The position numbers and the translations under genes were made by a program. A model generated the notes under the pieces. The model did not search any database. It was not told the origin of the DNA and worked only from the letters and a program-made list of their open reading frames with translations. From Candidatus Hodarchaeota archaeon (GTDB lineage Archaea > Asgardarchaeota > Heimdallarchaeia > Hodarchaeales > YT1-039), in the NCBI GenBank assembly GCA_016840025.1, contig JAEOTF010000063.1, positions 1-8,322 of the forward strand: a stretch of 8,322 nt of DNA. Reading direction: 5' to 3'. This document shows, in pieces, positions 2-7,673 of this stretch (within the stretch, counting starts at the first letter, position 1; every line of letters begins with the position of its first letter).

Positions 2-781
2 CACGATTTCAGCATTTCAGCAGGTGATATAGTTGGATTCAATATTGTATATTACGATTATCCGGGACCAACCAGTAAAACGTGGCCTGCATATCCAATT
101 AGTGATGTAGATAACTATGCAGAGATCAAAATTGCTGAAGGTGGAATAGAAAGATATGCCAACGAAATAATCGAAGCACCTGAGTATACTGTATGTTGCA
201 TTTATCCTGATTATGAGGGTTCAAAACCTCCAGGTGTTTATCCTGCGTCTTTGAGTGATTGGACTGCGATAGGATTTATTATTGGTATGTTCTCGAATAG
301 TCAGAATGAGACTACCGATACGAATCCATCAGTTATCAATACGGGTACTGGTATGATTATACTGTCTGATGGTAAATTCGTGCTTTTCGGTGGGCCTTTA
401 GTTAATTCTGCAGGGTACTATTACGAGAATAACCGGGTTGCACCGGTCTATTGGGGACAGGTTGGACTTACTTATTATTTGTATTTAGCAAATGGCACAA
501 GGCTTGATGATACTGCTATGCATTTCTCACTGATAGGTGCAGGTACTAATGATACCTTTTTGATTGAGCGATTCACAGACAACTCTGGTAATACTATCTA
601 TTACATGTATGGTTATGGTTGGAAGGGAACTTTTGCTGCTGGTAAGTTCTTCAAGTTTGTTATTGCTCCAGATATGGAAAGTTATACTGATTCTTTCTAT
701 GTGTTCAGATGGGCTGATGATGATGGTGACGGATTTGTTGATCTGGATGAAATAAACACGACACCTGTTGCATCAGGATAG
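2..781 (+). CDS. Secreted/cell-surface protein with C-terminal EF-hand-like loop (5' partial)
   Basis: The frame is open from base 2, so the gene starts left of the window; 259 residues of its C-terminal part are visible. An internal TTG at 251 could be taken for a start, but the coding sense continues upstream of it (for example IVGFNIVYYDYPG). The protein is rich in Tyr, Gly, Asn and Thr and low in Lys, as in exported beta-rich surface proteins. Visible blocks are GMIILSDGKFVLFGGPLVN, resembling a motif of archaeal S-layer-type proteins, and YGYGWKGTF. Near the C-terminus (bases 716-751) is a perfect calcium-binding loop, DDDGDGFVDLDE, with D at positions 1, 3, 5 and 9, G at 6 and E at 12. 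Nine residues (INTTPVASG) follow before the stop. No signal peptide can be seen because the N-terminus is missing. The last 29 bases before the stop are repeated at 6589-6617, so a second copy of this gene once existed downstream. The surface role is inferred from composition and motifs; the exact family is uncertain. Confidence 0.85.
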   Translation, partial: HDFSISAGDIVGFNIVYYDYPGPTSKTWPAYPISDVDNYAEIKIAEGGIERYANEIIEAPEYTVCCIYPDYEGSKPPGVYPASLSDWTAIGFIIGMFSNSQNETTDTNPSVINTGTGMIILSDGKFVLFGGPLVNSAGYYYENNRVAPVYWGQVGLTYYLYLANGTRLDDTAMHFSLIGAGTNDTFLIERFTDNSGNTIYYMYGYGWKGTFAAGKFFKFVIAPDMESYTDSFYVFRWADDDGDGFVDLDEINTTPVASG

Positions 782-782
782 C

Positions 783-869
783 TCGTTCAAATCTTTTATC
801 CGTAACTATTTAGCAACCTCTAAAGAAGAACGCTATGAAGTTTATATGAAAGATACTAAGAACTCGTAA
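783..869 (+). pseudogene. Coding-like fragment without a start codon
   Basis: Between the surface gene stop and the methyltransferase-type leader, a frame without stops ends at the TAA at 867-869. Its product has a protein-like composition (NYLATSKEERYEVYMK in the middle), but no usable start codon lies outside the preceding gene. I do not recognise the sequence. It could be the 3' tail of a lost gene or a chance open frame. The first bases (AAATCTTTT at 789-797) are shared with 6625-6633 downstream of the second surface-gene remnant, so part of this stretch may be the shared 3' flank of the surface gene rather than an independent gene. Confidence 0.25.
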
Positions 870-960
870 AAATTAGAGACTCATACTAAAGAGCAGATTA
901 TAGCGCGCGCCTAAATCCTTACAGAAATCGCAAGATATTTATCTTCTCAAAAAAGTTTAG
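857..960 (+). pseudogene. Methyltransferase paralogue reduced to leader plus last 16 codons
   Basis: This is a deletion remnant of a second copy of the methyltransferase gene at 6876-7625. Bases 857-900 align with the region just upstream of that gene (about 6827-6871); the stretch 871-900 matches 6842-6871 at 25 of 30 positions, including a shared AGACTCATA. Bases 910-960 match the end of the intact gene (7575-7625) with 5 mismatches in 51 bases and encode PKSLQKSQDIYLLKKV followed by TAG; the intact protein ends PASLQKSQDIYLLKKV. Everything between, about 700 bases including the start codon, SAM-binding motif and catalytic core, is absent, and the GC-palindrome TAGCGCGCGC (901-910) lies exactly at the join. 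The nucleotide differences, several synonymous, show a diverged paralogue rather than a recent copy. The remnant cannot encode a working enzyme. It lies 3' of the surface gene, in the same order as the second surface-gene remnant and intact methyltransferase at 6589-7625. Confidence 0.85.
901..910 (+). repeat. GC-palindrome scar 1 (TAGCGCGCGC)
   Basis: First of six copies of TAG(C/T)GCGCGC. It sits at the junction between the methyltransferase-like leader (left) and the last codons of that gene (right). TAG CGC GCG is in the same reading frame as the retained tail, so it places a stop codon in frame directly before it. The right half of the 12-base palindrome is broken here (GCC instead of GCTA) because the final C belongs to the CCT codon of the retained gene end. 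Confidence 0.85.
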
Positions 961-973
961 GACTTTAATGCAC

Positions 974-2556: not shown

Positions 2557-4572
2557 ATGGAAGACTTAAGAAGAATTATTAATCATATTACAGGAAAACT
2601 CAATTTGCTACTTGGTTTTGGACATTCACTTCAAAATATTTTAGAAAAAAATTTTCAACTTCAAAACAGTAGTTTTTTTGAACTCAACCTTAATGAGCAA
2701 TATAAAATATGGTTGAAAAACAGTGAATTAACAGAAGATCAAATTCATAAGATACGTCAAAGGGCTTCAAATTTTACATATAGACCATTAATCAGTCTTG
2801 TAATGCTGGTATATCATGCAAATGAAAAATGGTTTAGATCAGCAATAGAATCGGTGGTTAAGCAGGTCTATTGTGAATGGGAACTTTGTGTTATTGATAC
2901 ATCAACAAAACAAGAAATAAAAAACATATTAACTGAGTACTCACAAAATTATGGTCAGATAAGAATAAAATATCTGAAGAAAAATTTGGGAATTGCAGGG
3001 ACATCTAATCAAGCGCTGGGTATGGCCAAAGGTGAATTCATAGCATTTATTGGCCATAATGACGAACTTCAACCTAACACCCTATTCGAATTTGTGAAGC
3101 TACTAAATCAAAATAGTGATCTGGATTTACTATATAGTGATGAAGATCAAAAAGATCTGAACGGTCAGAGAGTAGAACCTTTCTTTAAGCCAGATTGGTC
3201 TCCCGATCTTCTCATGTCTATGAATTACATATCCCAATTTTCAATATTCAGAAAAACCTTGGTAGATAAGATTGGGGGATTCCGTGAAGGATTCGAGGGT
3301 AGTCAAGACTATGATTTAGTACTAAGATTTACTGAATTAACAAATAAGATTGCTCACATCCCTAAACCCTTATACAGTTGCCAAAAACTGCCAGGCTCTG
3401 CTGCTGGGTCTTTATATGCAAAGCTACATGCGCGAACATCCACAAAGAAAGCACTAAGAGAAGCTTTGCATAGGCGAGGCTTAGACGGAGAAGTTTTAGA
3501 AGGTTTCGGTGAGCATCATCGAGTAAGATATTATGTTCATCGAAGCCCTATGGTGAGTATTATTATACCGACTAAAGATAAGGTTGAACTTCTAAAACGG
3601 TGTATCAAAAGTATAGAAACTAAGACTCTCTACAAAAACTATGAGATAATTGTCCTAGACAATAATAGTACTGATCCTGATACTATATCCTATCTAAAGA
3701 GTATTCCATACAAGATTGAAGACTTTAAAGATCCTTTCAACTACTCAAAAATAAATAATTTAGGTGCAAGATTGGCAAAAGGCCAATATCTTCTTTTTCT
3801 AAACAATGATACTGAAATTGTAGATGGAAATTGGTTGGAAGCTATGTTAGAGCATTCACAGAGACCTGAGGTTGGAATAGTAGGTGCACTCCTAATTTAT
3901 CCTGAAAGTAGAACCAAATCCAAACATCATATAATCCAGCATGCAGGAGTTGTTCTCGGAGCAGGCGGTGTTGCTAATCACGCTTTTAGAGGTCTCCCAT
4001 ATGAAACATCAAACTATTTTGGTCTACACAGAGTACTTCGTAATTGTATCGCAGTTACCGGAGCATGTATGATGCTTAGAAAAAATGTGTTCAATGAAGT
4101 TGGAGGTTTTGATGAGAATTTCAAAATTGTTTTTCAAGATGTAGATCTCTGTCTTCGTCTGAAAGAGAAGGGATATTCTATTGTCTATACTCCTTACAGC
4201 ATATTAAATCATAGCGAGAAGGCAACTAGGAAAGACCATCCTGATGAGGATGAAAATTTAATAATAAAACGATGGAAAAAAATGATATTTGAAGGTGACC
4301 CTTATTATAATCCCAACCTGACTCTTATCAGAGAAGATTACTCCCTATCTTTTCAGTGCTCAACGGATCGTGCTATGACGGTGCTACTTGATATCTATAA
4401 TATAAGACCTGATTTGCAAAGATCTTATCCTGAAGTTCGACGGGGCAACTACACTAGATTAAAAGATTGGGTTGTAAAATATGGATTGACAGTAGATAAT
4501 GCAAAAATTCTTCTAAAGCCTTATGGGTCATACTTTCTTTCGAATGTCTATGAAAAAATTGAGCATAATTAG
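2557..4572 (+). CDS. Two-domain family 2 glycosyltransferase
   Basis: The 671-residue protein has two GT-A domains, as in bifunctional glycosyltransferases of O-antigen-like and surface glycan loci. Residues 1-75 form an N-terminal extension. Domain 1 (about 77-290) keeps SDEDQKDLNGQRVEPFFKPD and FEGSQDYDLVLR, but its metal-binding loop, normally close to LDHDDEL, reads FIGHNDEL (G166, H167, N168, D169), and the usual DDxS nucleotide-binding motif reads IDTS. Domain 2 (about 332-560) is canonical: VSIIIPTKD, IIVLDNNSTD, FLNNDTE (DXD-type, 416-419), VTGACMMLRK and QDVDLCLRLKEKGY (527-540). Residues 605-645 (LLDIYNIRPDLQRSYPEV) resemble a linker that in related proteins often joins to further domains. 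Start ATG is fixed by GAGGT at 2545. The TAG stop is part of the palindrome at 4570-4581, so the protein may be shortened. No membrane segments are seen. The activity is probably transfer of one or two sugars in glycan assembly; substrates are unknown. Confidence 0.94.
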   Translation: MEDLRRIINHITGKLNLLLGFGHSLQNILEKNFQLQNSSFFELNLNEQYKIWLKNSELTEDQIHKIRQRASNFTYRPLISLVMLVYHANEKWFRSAIESVVKQVYCEWELCVIDTSTKQEIKNILTEYSQNYGQIRIKYLKKNLGIAGTSNQALGMAKGEFIAFIGHNDELQPNTLFEFVKLLNQNSDLDLLYSDEDQKDLNGQRVEPFFKPDWSPDLLMSMNYISQFSIFRKTLVDKIGGFREGFEGSQDYDLVLRFTELTNKIAHIPKPLYSCQKLPGSAAGSLYAKLHARTSTKKALREALHRRGLDGEVLEGFGEHHRVRYYVHRSPMVSIIIPTKDKVELLKRCIKSIETKTLYKNYEIIVLDNNSTDPDTISYLKSIPYKIEDFKDPFNYSKINNLGARLAKGQYLLFLNNDTEIVDGNWLEAMLEHSQRPEVGIVGALLIYPESRTKSKHHIIQHAGVVLGAGGVANHAFRGLPYETSNYFGLHRVLRNCIAVTGACMMLRKNVFNEVGGFDENFKIVFQDVDLCLRLKEKGYSIVYTPYSILNHSEKATRKDHPDEDENLIIKRWKKMIFEGDPYYNPNLTLIREDYSLSFQCSTDRAMTVLLDIYNIRPDLQRSYPEVRRGNYTRLKDWVVKYGLTVDNAKILLKPYGSYFLSNVYEKIEHN

Positions 4573-4581
4573 CGCGCGCTA
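4570..4581. repeat. GC-palindrome scar 2 (perfect 12-base palindrome)
   Basis: TAGCGCGCGCTA lies between two convergent genes. Its first three bases are the stop codon of the two-domain glycosyltransferase, and its last base is four bases from the stop of the opposing membrane-protein gene (4586-4588). It carries TAG on both strands. Reading right in scar phase gives TAG CGC GCG CTA TAA, an immediate stop. It may mark a deletion that removed the end of the glycosyltransferase gene or a following gene. Confidence 0.8.
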
Positions 4582-4585
4582 TAAT

Positions 4586-6331
4586 CTACTTTTCATCACG
4601 GACTATTGTGAAAATTAATTTTTGTTGTGGATAGTAATAGTTGTTTCCGTCTTTTGTGACTATTTTTAAAATAAGTGTATGCGTCCCCTCATCAAGGATG
4701 GAAGAAGATAGAGATGCTTTAAACCCAGAGAATCTGAAGTTAGGAGTATTAAGTTGATCAGATATGTCTGATCTATCTAGACCATAAATGGTTGGGATAT
4801 CTAACTCTTCATCAAGAGTGAGTAAGACTGCGGATGCGGTATTGTTGAATTGTTTATCTACGGCCCAGCCTTCAATATAGATGGTTTTCTCAGTATTCGA
4901 ATTAATAATAATAGGATTTTTTCCATATGTTGTTCTATCATTTATAGACTCTATAGCAAAAAGTGTACTTTGATTAATCATAATAAGTTTTGATGTTTCT
5001 ATTGCGGGGTCACTAAAAATATGTAATTTATTTTTTTCTGAGAATTTAATTAGTCCCCTTACCCAATCAACGTCTGGACAAATATATCTCCTAATGCTTT
5101 CATTTGATTGTATTTTGTAAGTTTTTAAAATGTATAATGCTGTCTCATTGCGATGTTTACTTTTGTAACCCTCATCCCATCCTGTACTATACGAAACTAC
5201 AACGCCAACTAGAATTAATGCAAGCAAGAAATGAGCTGCTAAGCTCTTATTTTTAGTAGAGGAATTATGGAAAATGGAAATTGCTAGCAGATATAGAGAA
5301 GAAATTCCCAAAAGTGTAATGGGAGTATACCGGGATGATAAAGCTTGACTGATACCAAAACCACTTCTTCCAAAAGAAATAGCTATTAAGCTCAGAGAAA
5401 TAACGATAACCAAGGAAATCCATATTCTATCTTTTATGTAAAGTTTCATCTTATGCTGGAAAATGATGATGAATATCCCAGTAATCGTTGTCACTAGGCC
5501 AAAACCTGTTGAGTTGGCAACTCCATCAGAAAGTGGCGCCCCTATTAGTACCAAGATATAACGCCCAGCTGTCATTAGACTCGTTGCATGGAACTTAACA
5601 AAACTAGGTGGAGCAAAAAAGTCATAAAAATATGAAGTATATGTTATAACAGCAAACAATCCCCATAAAATTAACTTTTTCAAGTCTTTTTTTCCATCGG
5701 TAATTAATAATTGGATTATTCCTACTGGCCATACCAATAATCCCGTCACGAACGAGTATGAGGCCAAAATTGCGCTTGGTAAACTCAATATAAAACTGGT
5801 GTCTATTCTCCTACTCTTATCCAGAAAGTAAAAAGTCAATACTGTACCGAATATCATCAAGTATATGTGAAATGTGAAACCCATCAATATGCTCTCATGT
5901 TGCTTGAAAGTGAATAACAGGAAAGAGATTGGAAGAAAATATAATAGACGTTTAGAATAACTGATATGTGAGAACTTTTTCCAATAGATATAGAAAATTA
6001 TTATCAGGGTAAGACAAATAATTAGCCAACTGAAGTACATCTCAATAATCGTATTATACTGAGTAAATTTACCAAGAGTTAACATAATCATCTTAGCAAA
6101 CGGCATCTTGTGTTCATTGTGTTGACCAAAGAAATCAATAAATGTCAATGTGCCATTCATCTCTTTTTGGATGAGACGAACCATCACCCATTCGTCCATG
6201 TAAATGAGATTGACGCCGAATAGACTGATGTAACGTAATAGAGCTATTGGAGGCAAAATCAGAAGAAGGCCGGGAATGATCAAGGAGAGCAATGAAGATA
6301 AATTAATTCTAGTCAAGAATTTGTTACTCAA
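4586..6331 (-). CDS. Polytopic membrane protein, GT-C glycosyltransferase-like, with C-terminal beta domain
   Basis: The product is about 581 residues with some ten or more hydrophobic segments over roughly residues 12-375, starting with SLLSLIIPGLLLILPPIALL. The first extracytoplasmic loop holds YMDEW (D46, E47) and then LTFIDFFGQHNEHKMPFAK. An acidic pair in the first outer loop is a hallmark of GT-C enzymes, which use lipid-linked sugar donors, and the QHNEH block recurs in uncharacterised polytopic proteins of glycan loci. SSRYTPI follows around 332-338. The C-terminal 110 residues, beginning EGWAVDKQ, with YGLDRSDIS, FSGFKASL and GTHTLILKIVTKDG, form a beta-rich domain seen at the ends of other glycan-related proteins. 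There is no ATG at the N-terminus; the TTG at 6329-6331 is the best start because the first helix follows at once and the frame closes upstream at 6365. Its upstream flank carries scar 3. GT-C activity is inferred from architecture; no close named family is claimed. Confidence 0.88.
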   Translation of the reverse strand: MSNKFLTRINLSSLLSLIIPGLLLILPPIALLRYISLFGVNLIYMDEWVMVRLIQKEMNGTLTFIDFFGQHNEHKMPFAKMIMLTLGKFTQYNTIIEMYFSWLIICLTLIIIFYIYWKKFSHISYSKRLLYFLPISFLLFTFKQHESILMGFTFHIYLMIFGTVLTFYFLDKSRRIDTSFILSLPSAILASYSFVTGLLVWPVGIIQLLITDGKKDLKKLILWGLFAVITYTSYFYDFFAPPSFVKFHATSLMTAGRYILVLIGAPLSDGVANSTGFGLVTTITGIFIIIFQHKMKLYIKDRIWISLVIVISLSLIAISFGRSGFGISQALSSRYTPITLLGISSLYLLAISIFHNSSTKNKSLAAHFLLALILVGVVVSYSTGWDEGYKSKHRNETALYILKTYKIQSNESIRRYICPDVDWVRGLIKFSEKNKLHIFSDPAIETSKLIMINQSTLFAIESINDRTTYGKNPIIINSNTEKTIYIEGWAVDKQFNNTASAVLLTLDEELDIPTIYGLDRSDISDQLNTPNFRFSGFKASLSSSILDEGTHTLILKIVTKDGNNYYYPQQKLIFTIVRDEK

Positions 6332-6356: not shown

Positions 6357-6395
6357 TTAAGGAATTAATTGTGATAGCACGGAGGGCGCGCGCTA
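6357..6395 (-). pseudogene. Putative 3' tail of a lost gene behind scar 3
   Basis: Read on the minus strand this starts with TAG CGC GCG and continues in that phase through PSVLSQLIP to a TAA, 25 bases before the TTG start of the membrane-protein gene. The arrangement matches the two proven remnants (scars 1 and 5), where the retained gene tail is in the same phase as TAG CGC GCG. No intact counterpart is in the window, so gene identity is unknown and a chance stop is possible. If real, the lost gene lay directly upstream of the membrane protein, probably in one operon. Confidence 0.35.
6386..6395 (-). repeat. GC-palindrome scar 3 (TAGCGCGCGC on minus strand)
   Basis: Minus-strand TAGCGCGCGC, with the right arm altered (CCC instead of CTA). 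It lies 55 bases upstream of the start of the membrane-protein gene. A 66-codon frame at 6328-6528 (minus) reads straight through this site and scar 4, but in a phase different from the scars and with no recognisable family, so it is not called as a gene. Confidence 0.8.
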
Positions 6396-6506
6396 CCGAT
6401 TTCTCCTCGACATAATAGATAACAGCTCCATCTACGATATAGAACATTTGCTTAATTATTGATTTTGTTGTTGACAGGTAGCTTTTTCCTAATCCAGATC
6501 TTGTAA

Positions 6507-6530
6507 TTACCCCTTTACACGCGCGCACTA
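6507..6530 (-). pseudogene. Putative short gene tail behind scar 4
   Basis: On the minus strand TAG TGC GCG is followed in phase by RVKG and a TAA. This fits the pattern of a retained gene end after a scar, but four codons are too few for identification and the stop may be chance. The next 111 bases on the minus strand (6396-6506) would be the spacer and leader of the gene lost at scar 3. Part of that stretch translates in one frame as a protein-like sequence (KQMFYIVDGAVIYYVEEK) that I cannot assign. Confidence 0.2.
6521..6530 (-). repeat. GC-palindrome scar 4 (TAGTGCGCGC on minus strand)
   Basis: Minus-strand TAGTGCGCGC, with one C-to-T change from the consensus. It is 46 bases from scar 5 and points the opposite way, as expected for the 5' ends of two divergently transcribed lost genes. 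Confidence 0.7.
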
Positions 6531-6576
6531 ATCAAGCTAGCATGATTATCATTCGTATGCATATTTGGAATTATCC

Positions 6577-6586
6577 TAGCGCGCGC
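6577..6586 (+). repeat. GC-palindrome scar 5 (TAGCGCGCGC)
   Basis: TAGCGCGCGC followed immediately by TT and the retained 3' end of a second surface-protein gene. The TAG CGC GCG triplets are in frame with that tail. The site therefore stands where the body of a gene is missing, as at scar 1. Confidence 0.85.
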
Positions 6587-6618
6587 TTATAAACACAACA
6601 CCTGATGCATCAGGATAA
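6587..6618 (+). pseudogene. 3' remnant of a second surface-protein gene
   Basis: Bases 6589-6617 match 752-780, the end of the surface-protein gene at the left edge, with 2 differences in 29 bases. The frame is preserved and encodes INTTPDASG then TAA; the intact gene ends INTTPVASG then TAG. One difference is synonymous and one changes Val to Asp. The similarity continues past the stop (AAATCTTTT at 6625-6633 against 789-797). Sequence upstream of ATA is not surface-gene sequence but scar 5. The gene body, including the EF-hand loop, has been lost. Homology over such a short stretch is credible because coding frame, stop position and 3' flank all correspond. Confidence 0.75.
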
Positions 6619-6629
6619 AACTGTAAATC

Positions 6630-6636
6630 TTTTTTT
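6630..6636 (+). terminator. Possible T-run terminator after the surface-gene remnant
   Basis: A run of seven or more T residues lies about 12 bases after the remnant's TAA, at the place where the intact copy has a shorter T-run (794-797). It could be the retained transcription end of the lost surface gene. Weak call in AT-rich DNA. Confidence 0.3.
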
Positions 6637-6640
6637 ATTA

Positions 6641-6652
6641 TAGCGCGCGCTA
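6641..6652. repeat. GC-palindrome scar 6 (perfect 12-base palindrome)
   Basis: TAGCGCGCGCTA, identical to scar 2. In the rightward phase it is followed by GAA AGT TAA, that is two codons and a stop, compatible with a very short retained gene end but unproven. The following 6653-6875 is AT-rich and holds no recognised gene; a 19-codon frame (6770-6829, starting MDYLFQNFKKK) is noted but unsupported. The block GAATTAAAGAC occurs twice there (6759-6769 and 6841-6851), the second copy being part of the methyltransferase leader. Confidence 0.8.
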
Positions 6653-6875
6653 GAAAGTTAATCTAGCGTAGTCTAAATCATTATTCATTTGTATACACGT
6701 TTGTTAGAATTATACTATTGTTATTCTATTCATAATTGTATTGAGAAACTATCTGTTAGAATTAAAGACATGGATTATTTGTTTCAAAATTTTAAGAAGA
6801 AAAGTTTAAACCGAGAAAAAGAAAAGTAGAGAAGTCTTAAGAATTAAAGACTCATAGTGAAGAGTAGATACTGAA

Positions 6876-7625
6876 TTGATAATCAATATCAAATCTAAAC
6901 ATCTGATATGGATCTTGCTTTTGATTTTCATAATTGGTTTAATAATAATAGTATTAAAGAAAAAGAATGAAGATAATCTGCCACCAGCACATATACGTGA
7001 CAAAGTAACTTACACAGAGGATGCAGGATACTTCCTAAGAACAGGTAAAGAAAGTCGGAAAAATATTGAAGGAGCTTTATCCAGTATTGGTAAAGATTTA
7101 GGTTCATTTCAAAACATTTTGGATTTCGGCTGTGGACCAGGAAGAACAATAAGGTGGTTAAAAAAATATTCGGCGAATTCGAGAATATATGGTACAGATG
7201 TTGATGCTGAAGCTATATCATGGTGTCAGAAAAATATTGATTTCGCAAATTTCAGTGTTAACAAATCATTACCTCCAACCGAATATGAAGATGAAATGTT
7301 TGACTTTGTATATGCTATATCTGTATTTACCCATCTAAGTGAATCAGAACAGTTTGCATGGTTAAAAGAGCTTAAAAGAATAATGAAACCGCAAGCGATA
7401 TTACTAATCTCACTTCACGGAGCAGATACCCAAAACAAACTTCCACGTAAATATAAGAAAATATTAGATGAGGAATTATTTGTTCATATTGTAACTGAAC
7501 GGACTGGGACCTTCCATAGCATAAATTATGTTTACGATAATTACTCAAAGTTTTTTGAAATATTAGATTACATTCCTGCATCTTTACAGAAATCACAAGA
7601 TATCTATCTTCTCAAAAAAGTTTAG
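6876..7625 (+). CDS. Class I SAM-dependent methyltransferase with N-terminal membrane helix
   Basis: The 249-residue protein carries a Rossmann-type methyltransferase domain: motif I ILDFGCGPGR (81-90), the acidic end of strand 2 in IYGTDVD (D108 or D110, ribose binding), and FDFVYAISVFTHLSE (142-156) with the following helix and KPQAILLISLHG. The pre-domain NLPPAHIRDKVTYTEDAGYFLRTGK and the C-terminal QDIYLLKK match the build of small methyltransferases found in surface-glycan loci, so a sugar or glycan-linked substrate is likely but not shown. Residues 9-27 form one hydrophobic helix followed by KKKNED, giving a membrane anchor with the catalytic domain in the cytoplasm. The only start giving this anchor is TTG at 6876; the frame closes upstream at 6858 and there is no clear ribosome site. 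A cytosolic form from a later start is possible. Its leader and last 17 codons are duplicated at 857-960, where a paralogue has been deleted. The next gene is convergent, 48 bases away. Confidence 0.9.
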   Translation: MIINIKSKHLIWILLLIFIIGLIIIVLKKKNEDNLPPAHIRDKVTYTEDAGYFLRTGKESRKNIEGALSSIGKDLGSFQNILDFGCGPGRTIRWLKKYSANSRIYGTDVDAEAISWCQKNIDFANFSVNKSLPPTEYEDEMFDFVYAISVFTHLSESEQFAWLKELKRIMKPQAILLISLHGADTQNKLPRKYKKILDEELFVHIVTERTGTFHSINYVYDNYSKFFEILDYIPASLQKSQDIYLLKKV

Positions 7626-7673
7626 AACTAAATTAACAACCGATAAAAATGATAGACTAGCTGGCATTGGTAT

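Follow-up and report, generated by a model that had tools for sequence, protein, structure and literature searches.

A short GC palindrome dispersed between genes of some uncultured archaea and often located at gene losses and gene-order breaks

Some uncultured archaea carry, dispersed between their genes, a short GC palindrome (consensus TA-GCGCGCGC-TA, with a core of 8 or 10 bp), which often stands exactly at gene losses or gene-order breaks. The motif accompanies derived joins, either at the join itself or next to it, and later breaks can also end at it; it may represent a record of how archaeal cells mend broken DNA. The motif was followed from the window (the whole stretch of 8322 bases analysed, 34.0% GC), in which a first-pass annotation had recognised a deleted methyltransferase paralogue with a GC-rich scar at the join, to the genomes of related archaea.

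Deletion joins in the window

The window harbors two copies, A and B, of a unit in which the end of ORF1, a leader and the end of a methyltransferase gene follow one another in the same order. In copy A, ORF1 (positions 2–781, plus strand) is open at its left end, comprises 259 aa within the window and retains an intact 3′ end; its C-terminal end is weakly EF-hand-like, under the Pfam cut-off, and terminates in the peptide INTTPVASG. Further downstream lie the leader of the lost methyltransferase (859–898, plus strand), the junction with the motif TATAGCGCGCGC (899–910, including the run GCGCGCGC at 903–910) and the methyltransferase relic (910–964, plus strand), which consists of the final 16 codons, the stop codon and 4 nt. 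The reference for this deletion is copy B, with the corresponding leader at 6830–6869 and an intact class I SAM methyltransferase of 249 aa at 6876–7625 (both on the plus strand), read from a TTG start; the protein P0001 (“Thermoproteota archaeon”), 90% identical to this methyltransferase, starts at the same residue. The two leaders agree at 33/40 positions (83% over 40 nt) and the relic agrees with 7575–7629 at 49/55 (89%), the next-best matches in the window being 22/40 for the leader stretch and 30/55 for the tail stretch. In the self-alignment of the window, 705 nt of copy B (6870–7574) are opposed by 11 nt of copy A (899–909, TATAGCGCGCG).

Hence, the loss of about 705 bases from the methyltransferase paralogue is real, and its description as a near-precise, derived deletion bearing a GC-rich insert, distinct from recombination between long direct repeats, was borne out: no such repeats were seen at the deletion ends. 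The intact copy B does not hold TAGCGCGCG within its gene, the arrangement which the first-pass annotation had named as contrary to its reading. The match of the left side to the leader stands as well, whereas the join can be placed only to within about 6 nt, since AGATTA (895–900) fits the tail side (ATTAGATTACATTCC) as well as the leader. The motif may therefore have taken the place of CATT of the tail instead of being the exact filler of the join, and joining over short microhomology (AGAT/AGATTA) represents a possible alternative parse, judging from the alignment. The earlier remark that the filler is in frame with the retained tail was given no weight. The proposed search of related genomes for an intact first copy did not turn up any genome encoding a closely related methyltransferase: word patterns found none in viral or genome contigs, and the genomes gave one match of 43% (256 Bathyarchaeia) and one of 45% (400 further genomes), with none closer.

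A second deletion with the same motif, missed in the first pass, is situated at 6579/6589 in copy B. Here the motif TAGCGCGCGC (6577–6586) immediately precedes, on the 5′ side, an ORF1 relic (6589–6618, plus strand) made up of the last nine codons and the stop codon (INTTPDASG*), which over 6589–6617 matches 752–780 at 27/29 positions, the best match elsewhere in the window being at most 18. The window opens inside ORF1, so this deletion is readable from its right side only. A third homology break (6643), also overlooked earlier, has the motif close by: a copy of TAGCGCGCGCTA occupies 6641–6652, a few bases past the end of the alignment between copies A and B. The arrangement suggests that the ORF1–methyltransferase unit was duplicated, after which the methyltransferase body would have disappeared from one copy and ORF1 from the other. 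At both joins of the unit the motif is found at the join or a few bases away, and the intact counterpart is devoid of it.

Overall, the window contains GCGCGCG at six places (11 matches, counting both strands), against a mean of 0.03 and a maximum of 2 in 200 shuffles. Thus, the filler is a repeated motif rather than a private scar: the first-pass annotation was right about its presence at the join and overlooked its recurrence elsewhere, and its interpretation as a whole holds in part, the derived deletion with a GC insert being supported and the insert proving to be one copy of a dispersed palindrome. The remaining places comprise TAGCGCGCGCTA between two convergent genes (4570–4581), where the TAG of the motif is the stop codon of a glycosyltransferase gene (2557–4572), GCGCGCGC (6386–6393) upstream of the minus-strand gene 4586–6331, and the shorter CGCGCGC (6520–6526). 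For the motifs at 4572, 6386 and 6520, the window offers no partner of this kind, and they are uninformative on joins.

Truncation of the neighboring genes at these places was considered and rejected. The glycosyltransferase (671 aa) is not cut by the motif at 4572, as its C-terminus coincides with that of the five closest relatives (two less closely related proteins extend further), and the protein encoded by 4586–6331 ends about where nine aligned relatives end. At the other side of the glycosyltransferase gene, a short frame at 2498–2569 (MNSLAWIISKYRIFQPRFSVWKT*) resembles the N-terminal part of its relatives, out of frame with the 671-aa gene; the five closest relatives are 693–1044 aa long, and the gene in the window may have lost an N-terminal part. 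The stretches 781–858, 965–1069, 6394–6518, 6527–6578, 6587–6642 and 6651–6829 gave no match among the 273 proteins compared.

Spread and shape of the motif

Outside the window, a filler private to one gene is likewise ruled out, since TAGCGCGCGC was counted 14 to 192 times in each of five archaeal genomes, all picked because they had the motif: on both strands together the counts were 192, 104, 92, 14 and 59, against 8, 5, 10, 1 and 3 for the reversed word. One of these genomes, the Thaumarchaeota assembly G003 (L048, L059; 92 against 10), is not one of the genomes catalogued for the class to which G001 belongs. The word TTATAGCGCGCGCTA was present in 108 stretches of public genome contigs; among the 80 listed, most were single matches in varied bacteria, as expected by chance, seven were named Bathyarchaeota and two Thaumarchaeota, and the only assemblies listed more than once, DVMM_8 (three), DVMM_2 (two) and B1T1B5 (two), all belonged to these archaea. 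Within 256 Bathyarchaeia genomes, TAGCGCGCGCTA was detected in 33, with five or more copies in 11, and the longer word TTATAGCGCGCG in 28. A 16-base form of the motif was also encountered in 3 viral contig stretches.

The length of the alternating runs is characteristic. In 66 contigs of G040 (390 kb), fetched by number and not for their motif sites, exact alternating runs starting with G were found 9 times at length 6 and 4 times at length 8, where 6.0 and 0.155, respectively, were expected. In G217, the first 333 kb contained 68 runs of at least 8 (43 of 8, 21 of 10, 2 of 12 and 2 of 14); a run of odd length was assigned to the next lower even length. A microsatellite origin was rejected, since run lengths do not fall off smoothly, length 6 being barely enriched and length 8 enriched. 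In general, the text of PMC12699852, as far as cited here, describes short tandem repeats as not enriched on average in archaea and bacteria, with GC/CG as the commonest dinucleotide repeat in Bacteria.

The core is frequently bordered by TA, namely on 22 of 44 sides at 22 G217 sites sampled regardless of their flanks, with a background of 7.9%. The motif is mostly intergenic: in stretches of G005 and G040, 62 of 74 sites fell outside ORFs of at least 100 aa, which cover 84.7% of this sequence (the G005 stretches and some of the G040 contigs having been picked because they contained sites). Certain stretches display local peculiarities. At L202:18930–19080, a unit of about 36 bp occurs in three tandem copies between a motif and several degenerate GC palindromes, and L203 and L206 of G005 contain eight motifs in stretches of 16–20 kb; matches of G040 to L206 extend only up to about 250 bases, and those to L203 include one of 4.3 kb, the rest being short.

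Motif sites in related genomes

The first-pass annotation did not cover other archaeal genomes, in which the motif likewise marks lost genes and rearrangements. The comparison involved three related draft genomes, G005, G040 and G004, which are mostly 83–98% identical where orthologous stretches align, and rearrangements starting at the motif were found among them. In the clearest arrangement (L198:8649), G005 carries 16 nt, TAGCGCGCGCGAACTA, where G040 has 501 nt with a 125-aa gene, the flanks being 90–91% identical. The product is a predicted membrane protein. The gene occupies the same place in G004, and the outgroups G035 and G036 possess a relative of the protein (56–62%) about 720 nt downstream of the same neighbor, so that loss in G005 is the simplest reading and the gene is probably ancestral; none was seen near this neighbor in the loci of G037, G039, G041, G043 and G045. 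A dispersed repeat, of which seven copies were aligned, is cut exactly at the motif in two of them (L206:1316 and L228:2830). Three other places rather favor a site that breaks again. G005 lacks a 264-aa gene present in G040 (L204:7773/L222:7342), the motif being found in both genomes at different edges. A further one-sided break coincides with the motif at L223:1283. At L217:2482, the site is kept in G004 and G005 diverges from the motif onward, with the G005 contig ending 22 bases later.

Smaller exchanges between relatives also involve the motif, their size being 1 to 14 bp in the well-aligned cases: 12 for 14 nt at L202:787 (compared with L214) and AGCGCGCGCT for C at L349:8433, both of undecided direction. 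At L202:32, roughly 10 bases replace 27 or the reverse, in an uncertain alignment. Certain sites are kept between species without rearrangement (L194/L291, L209:6901/L219:235 and L210:17698/L229:1347). At L288:3042, L276:6459, L209 opposite L219:897 and L349 opposite L216:2011, single-base differences within the motif are C-to-T or G-to-A, as is expected if the cytosines are methylated; these cases are few.

The association with breaks exceeds that of control positions, albeit in small numbers. Seven of 62 non-ORF sites were flush with alignment ends, compared with a mean of 1.59 (sd 1.23) for non-ORF positions of the same loci, where 2 of 1000 draws were as high; the 12 sites in ORFs were left out, and the seven include L204 and L222, which represent a single locus viewed from either genome, and L202:18930, which adjoins the tandem repeat and not a rearrangement. 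Within 15 bp of an alignment end, there were 15 of 79 sites, the control positions, taken 60–800 bases from a site whether coding or not, giving 4.18 (sd 1.9, maximum 11), with 0 of 200 draws as high. The continuity of the flanks was assessed for 74 non-ORF sites, some loci being counted twice, once per genome: 58 offered no flank that could be aligned, 10 showed a break or shift, 5 were continuous and 1 lay at a contig edge, while 6000 random non-ORF positions yielded 4659, 427, 899 and 15, respectively (this comparison leaves out the one motif site and the 15 control positions at contig edges, the ORF sites and those less than 100 bases from a locus end). Mismatches between relatives numbered 7/81 in the core and 38/600 in the flanks, which gives no sign of core constraint on these few sites; three of the seven core mismatches belong to a single site within a gene, and certain pairs were counted in both directions.

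Possible origin of the motif at joins

The explanation favored here, albeit tentatively and with slightly less than even confidence, is that the GC filler is a copy of the dispersed palindrome left where DNA ends were joined, i.e., the scar of a Ku-independent end joining. According to it, broken ends would receive self-complementary alternating GC, the tailed ends would pair over about 8 bp and would then be sealed without Ku, and the outcome would be a fixed palindrome regardless of the size of the loss. Afterwards, the motif would drift at about the rate of its surroundings and could break again. Ku (PF02735) was found in 54 of the 256 Bathyarchaeia genomes, and among the 11 motif-rich ones (five or more 12-mers) in G218 alone; its absence from the other 10 is tentative, since the completeness of the genomes is uncertain. 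Joining by Ku was set aside as the source of the motif since Ku was not found in these 10. The conserved, unrearranged sites count against the scar reading, and filler added without guidance should be more variable. A polymerase making strictly alternating DNA on a protein template, in a defence system, is described in part of the text of PMC13174585 and offers no more than an analogy. A more specific proposal, speculative and rather unlikely as it stands, is that in some archaea an end-joining polymerase adds strictly alternating GC, untemplated or templated by protein or RNA, making any two ends cohesive, so that the genome would keep a countable and datable record of breaks and gene losses in the form of GC palindromes.

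The close rival of the end-joining scar, with some cases behind it, is a palindrome that was there before: a breakage-prone site, forming Z-DNA or a cruciform, at which deletions and rearrangements start or end and which stays at the joint. This is possible, if somewhat unlikely. At L213:14965/L230, the left flank and the motif, after the same stop codon, are common to G005 and G040, and G004 carries a close variant, TAGCGCGTGCTA, displaced by a few bases; the gene order to the right is kept in G005 and G004, and G040 has other genes there. At L352:1136, a deletion in G004 ends flush at a motif which G005, as read by eye, shares with one base changed; hence, the motif can precede a deletion. 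In place of the deletion G040 has about 1.2 kb with a 342-aa gene, presumably alcohol-dehydrogenase-like by its sequence, a relative of which lies upstream of the same neighbor in the outgroup G037 (one of four with upstream DNA), and the join of G005 is about 50 bases away from its own motif. By contrast, the matched alleles at truncation points (copy B and ORF1 of the window, the gene of G040 and G004, and the intact repeat copies) lack the motif at these points, so that its arrival must have preceded or accompanied the deletion. Runs of 8–10 bp are also short for Z-DNA fragility, which weighs against a fragile site. On the other side, Z-DNA-forming sequences are termed deletion hot spots in the text of PMC13174585 and in titles cited there.

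The mostly intergenic position and the conservation of several sites between species would also suit an ordinary functional element, e.g., a terminator, a protein-binding or a nucleoid site, meeting deletion ends since both favor intergenic DNA. We consider this quite unlikely: non-ORF controls from the same loci still gave 1.59 against the 7 flush sites, two copies of the dispersed repeat end precisely at the motif, and the core gives no sign, on few sites, of slower evolution than its flanks. The excess of TA around a palindromic core recalls the excision footprint of a TA-target transposon (TA-GCGC/GCGC-TA) or the site of a cassette recombinase. This origin appears very unlikely, as pairs of TAGCGC and GCGCTA at larger distances showed no clear excess and no element with such ends was found (spacings up to 3 kb, 549 kb searched), and the genes missing next to the motifs of L198 and L352 have no motif at their ends in G040. 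An assembly artefact could be suspected, the window being one contig of 8322 bases and the compared genomes being drafts in many contigs; it is scarcely credible, given that separate genomes share orthologous sites at which both motif and flanks agree and that the motif is abundant in G217, which has a contig of at least 1.37 Mb.

Significance and known systems

Gene loss drives much of microbial evolution and usually leaves few readable traces. If the fixed palindrome of 8–10 bp marks joins, breaks would become countable and mappable across the genomes of uncultured archaea, motif-bearing and motif-free genomes could be compared to find the responsible enzyme, and the motif would show how archaea lacking Ku join broken ends.

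None of the titles and abstract openings listed in the literature searches dealt with this motif, but several known systems share certain of its features. HIP1 (GCGATCGC) and REP palindromes are, like the motif, short, dispersed and overrepresented; they differ from it in sequence. The excision footprints of Tc1/mariner-type elements consist of TA flanks around a few bases, whereas here the core is longer, deletions of hundreds of bases occur alongside and no parent element was found. Ku-dependent end joining leaves small filler insertions at deletion joins; in the present case the filler is a fixed palindrome, and Ku was not found in the great majority of the motif-rich genomes.

Among the published systems, the Z-DNA deletion hot spots, for which PMC13174585 cites the originals, tie alternating purine–pyrimidine DNA to deletions, as observed here; according to that source, however, the deletions revert the causative sequence, whereas the 8–10 bp unit described here stands at the joint. 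The nearest published description found is that of the deletion-coupled insertions of Haloquadratum walsbyi, where, as stated in part of the text of PMC3119063, lost DNA is replaced by unrelated sequence at the identical position and surface genes are involved. The same replacement between relatives is seen at L198:8649 (compared with L281) and at L202:787 (compared with L214). The inserts of Haloquadratum, according to the same part of PMC3119063, vary widely in size and have no conserved targeting-like sequence, whereas the joins described here, found via a GCGCGCG search so that all contain the motif (motif-free exchanges exist too), carry the same short palindrome.
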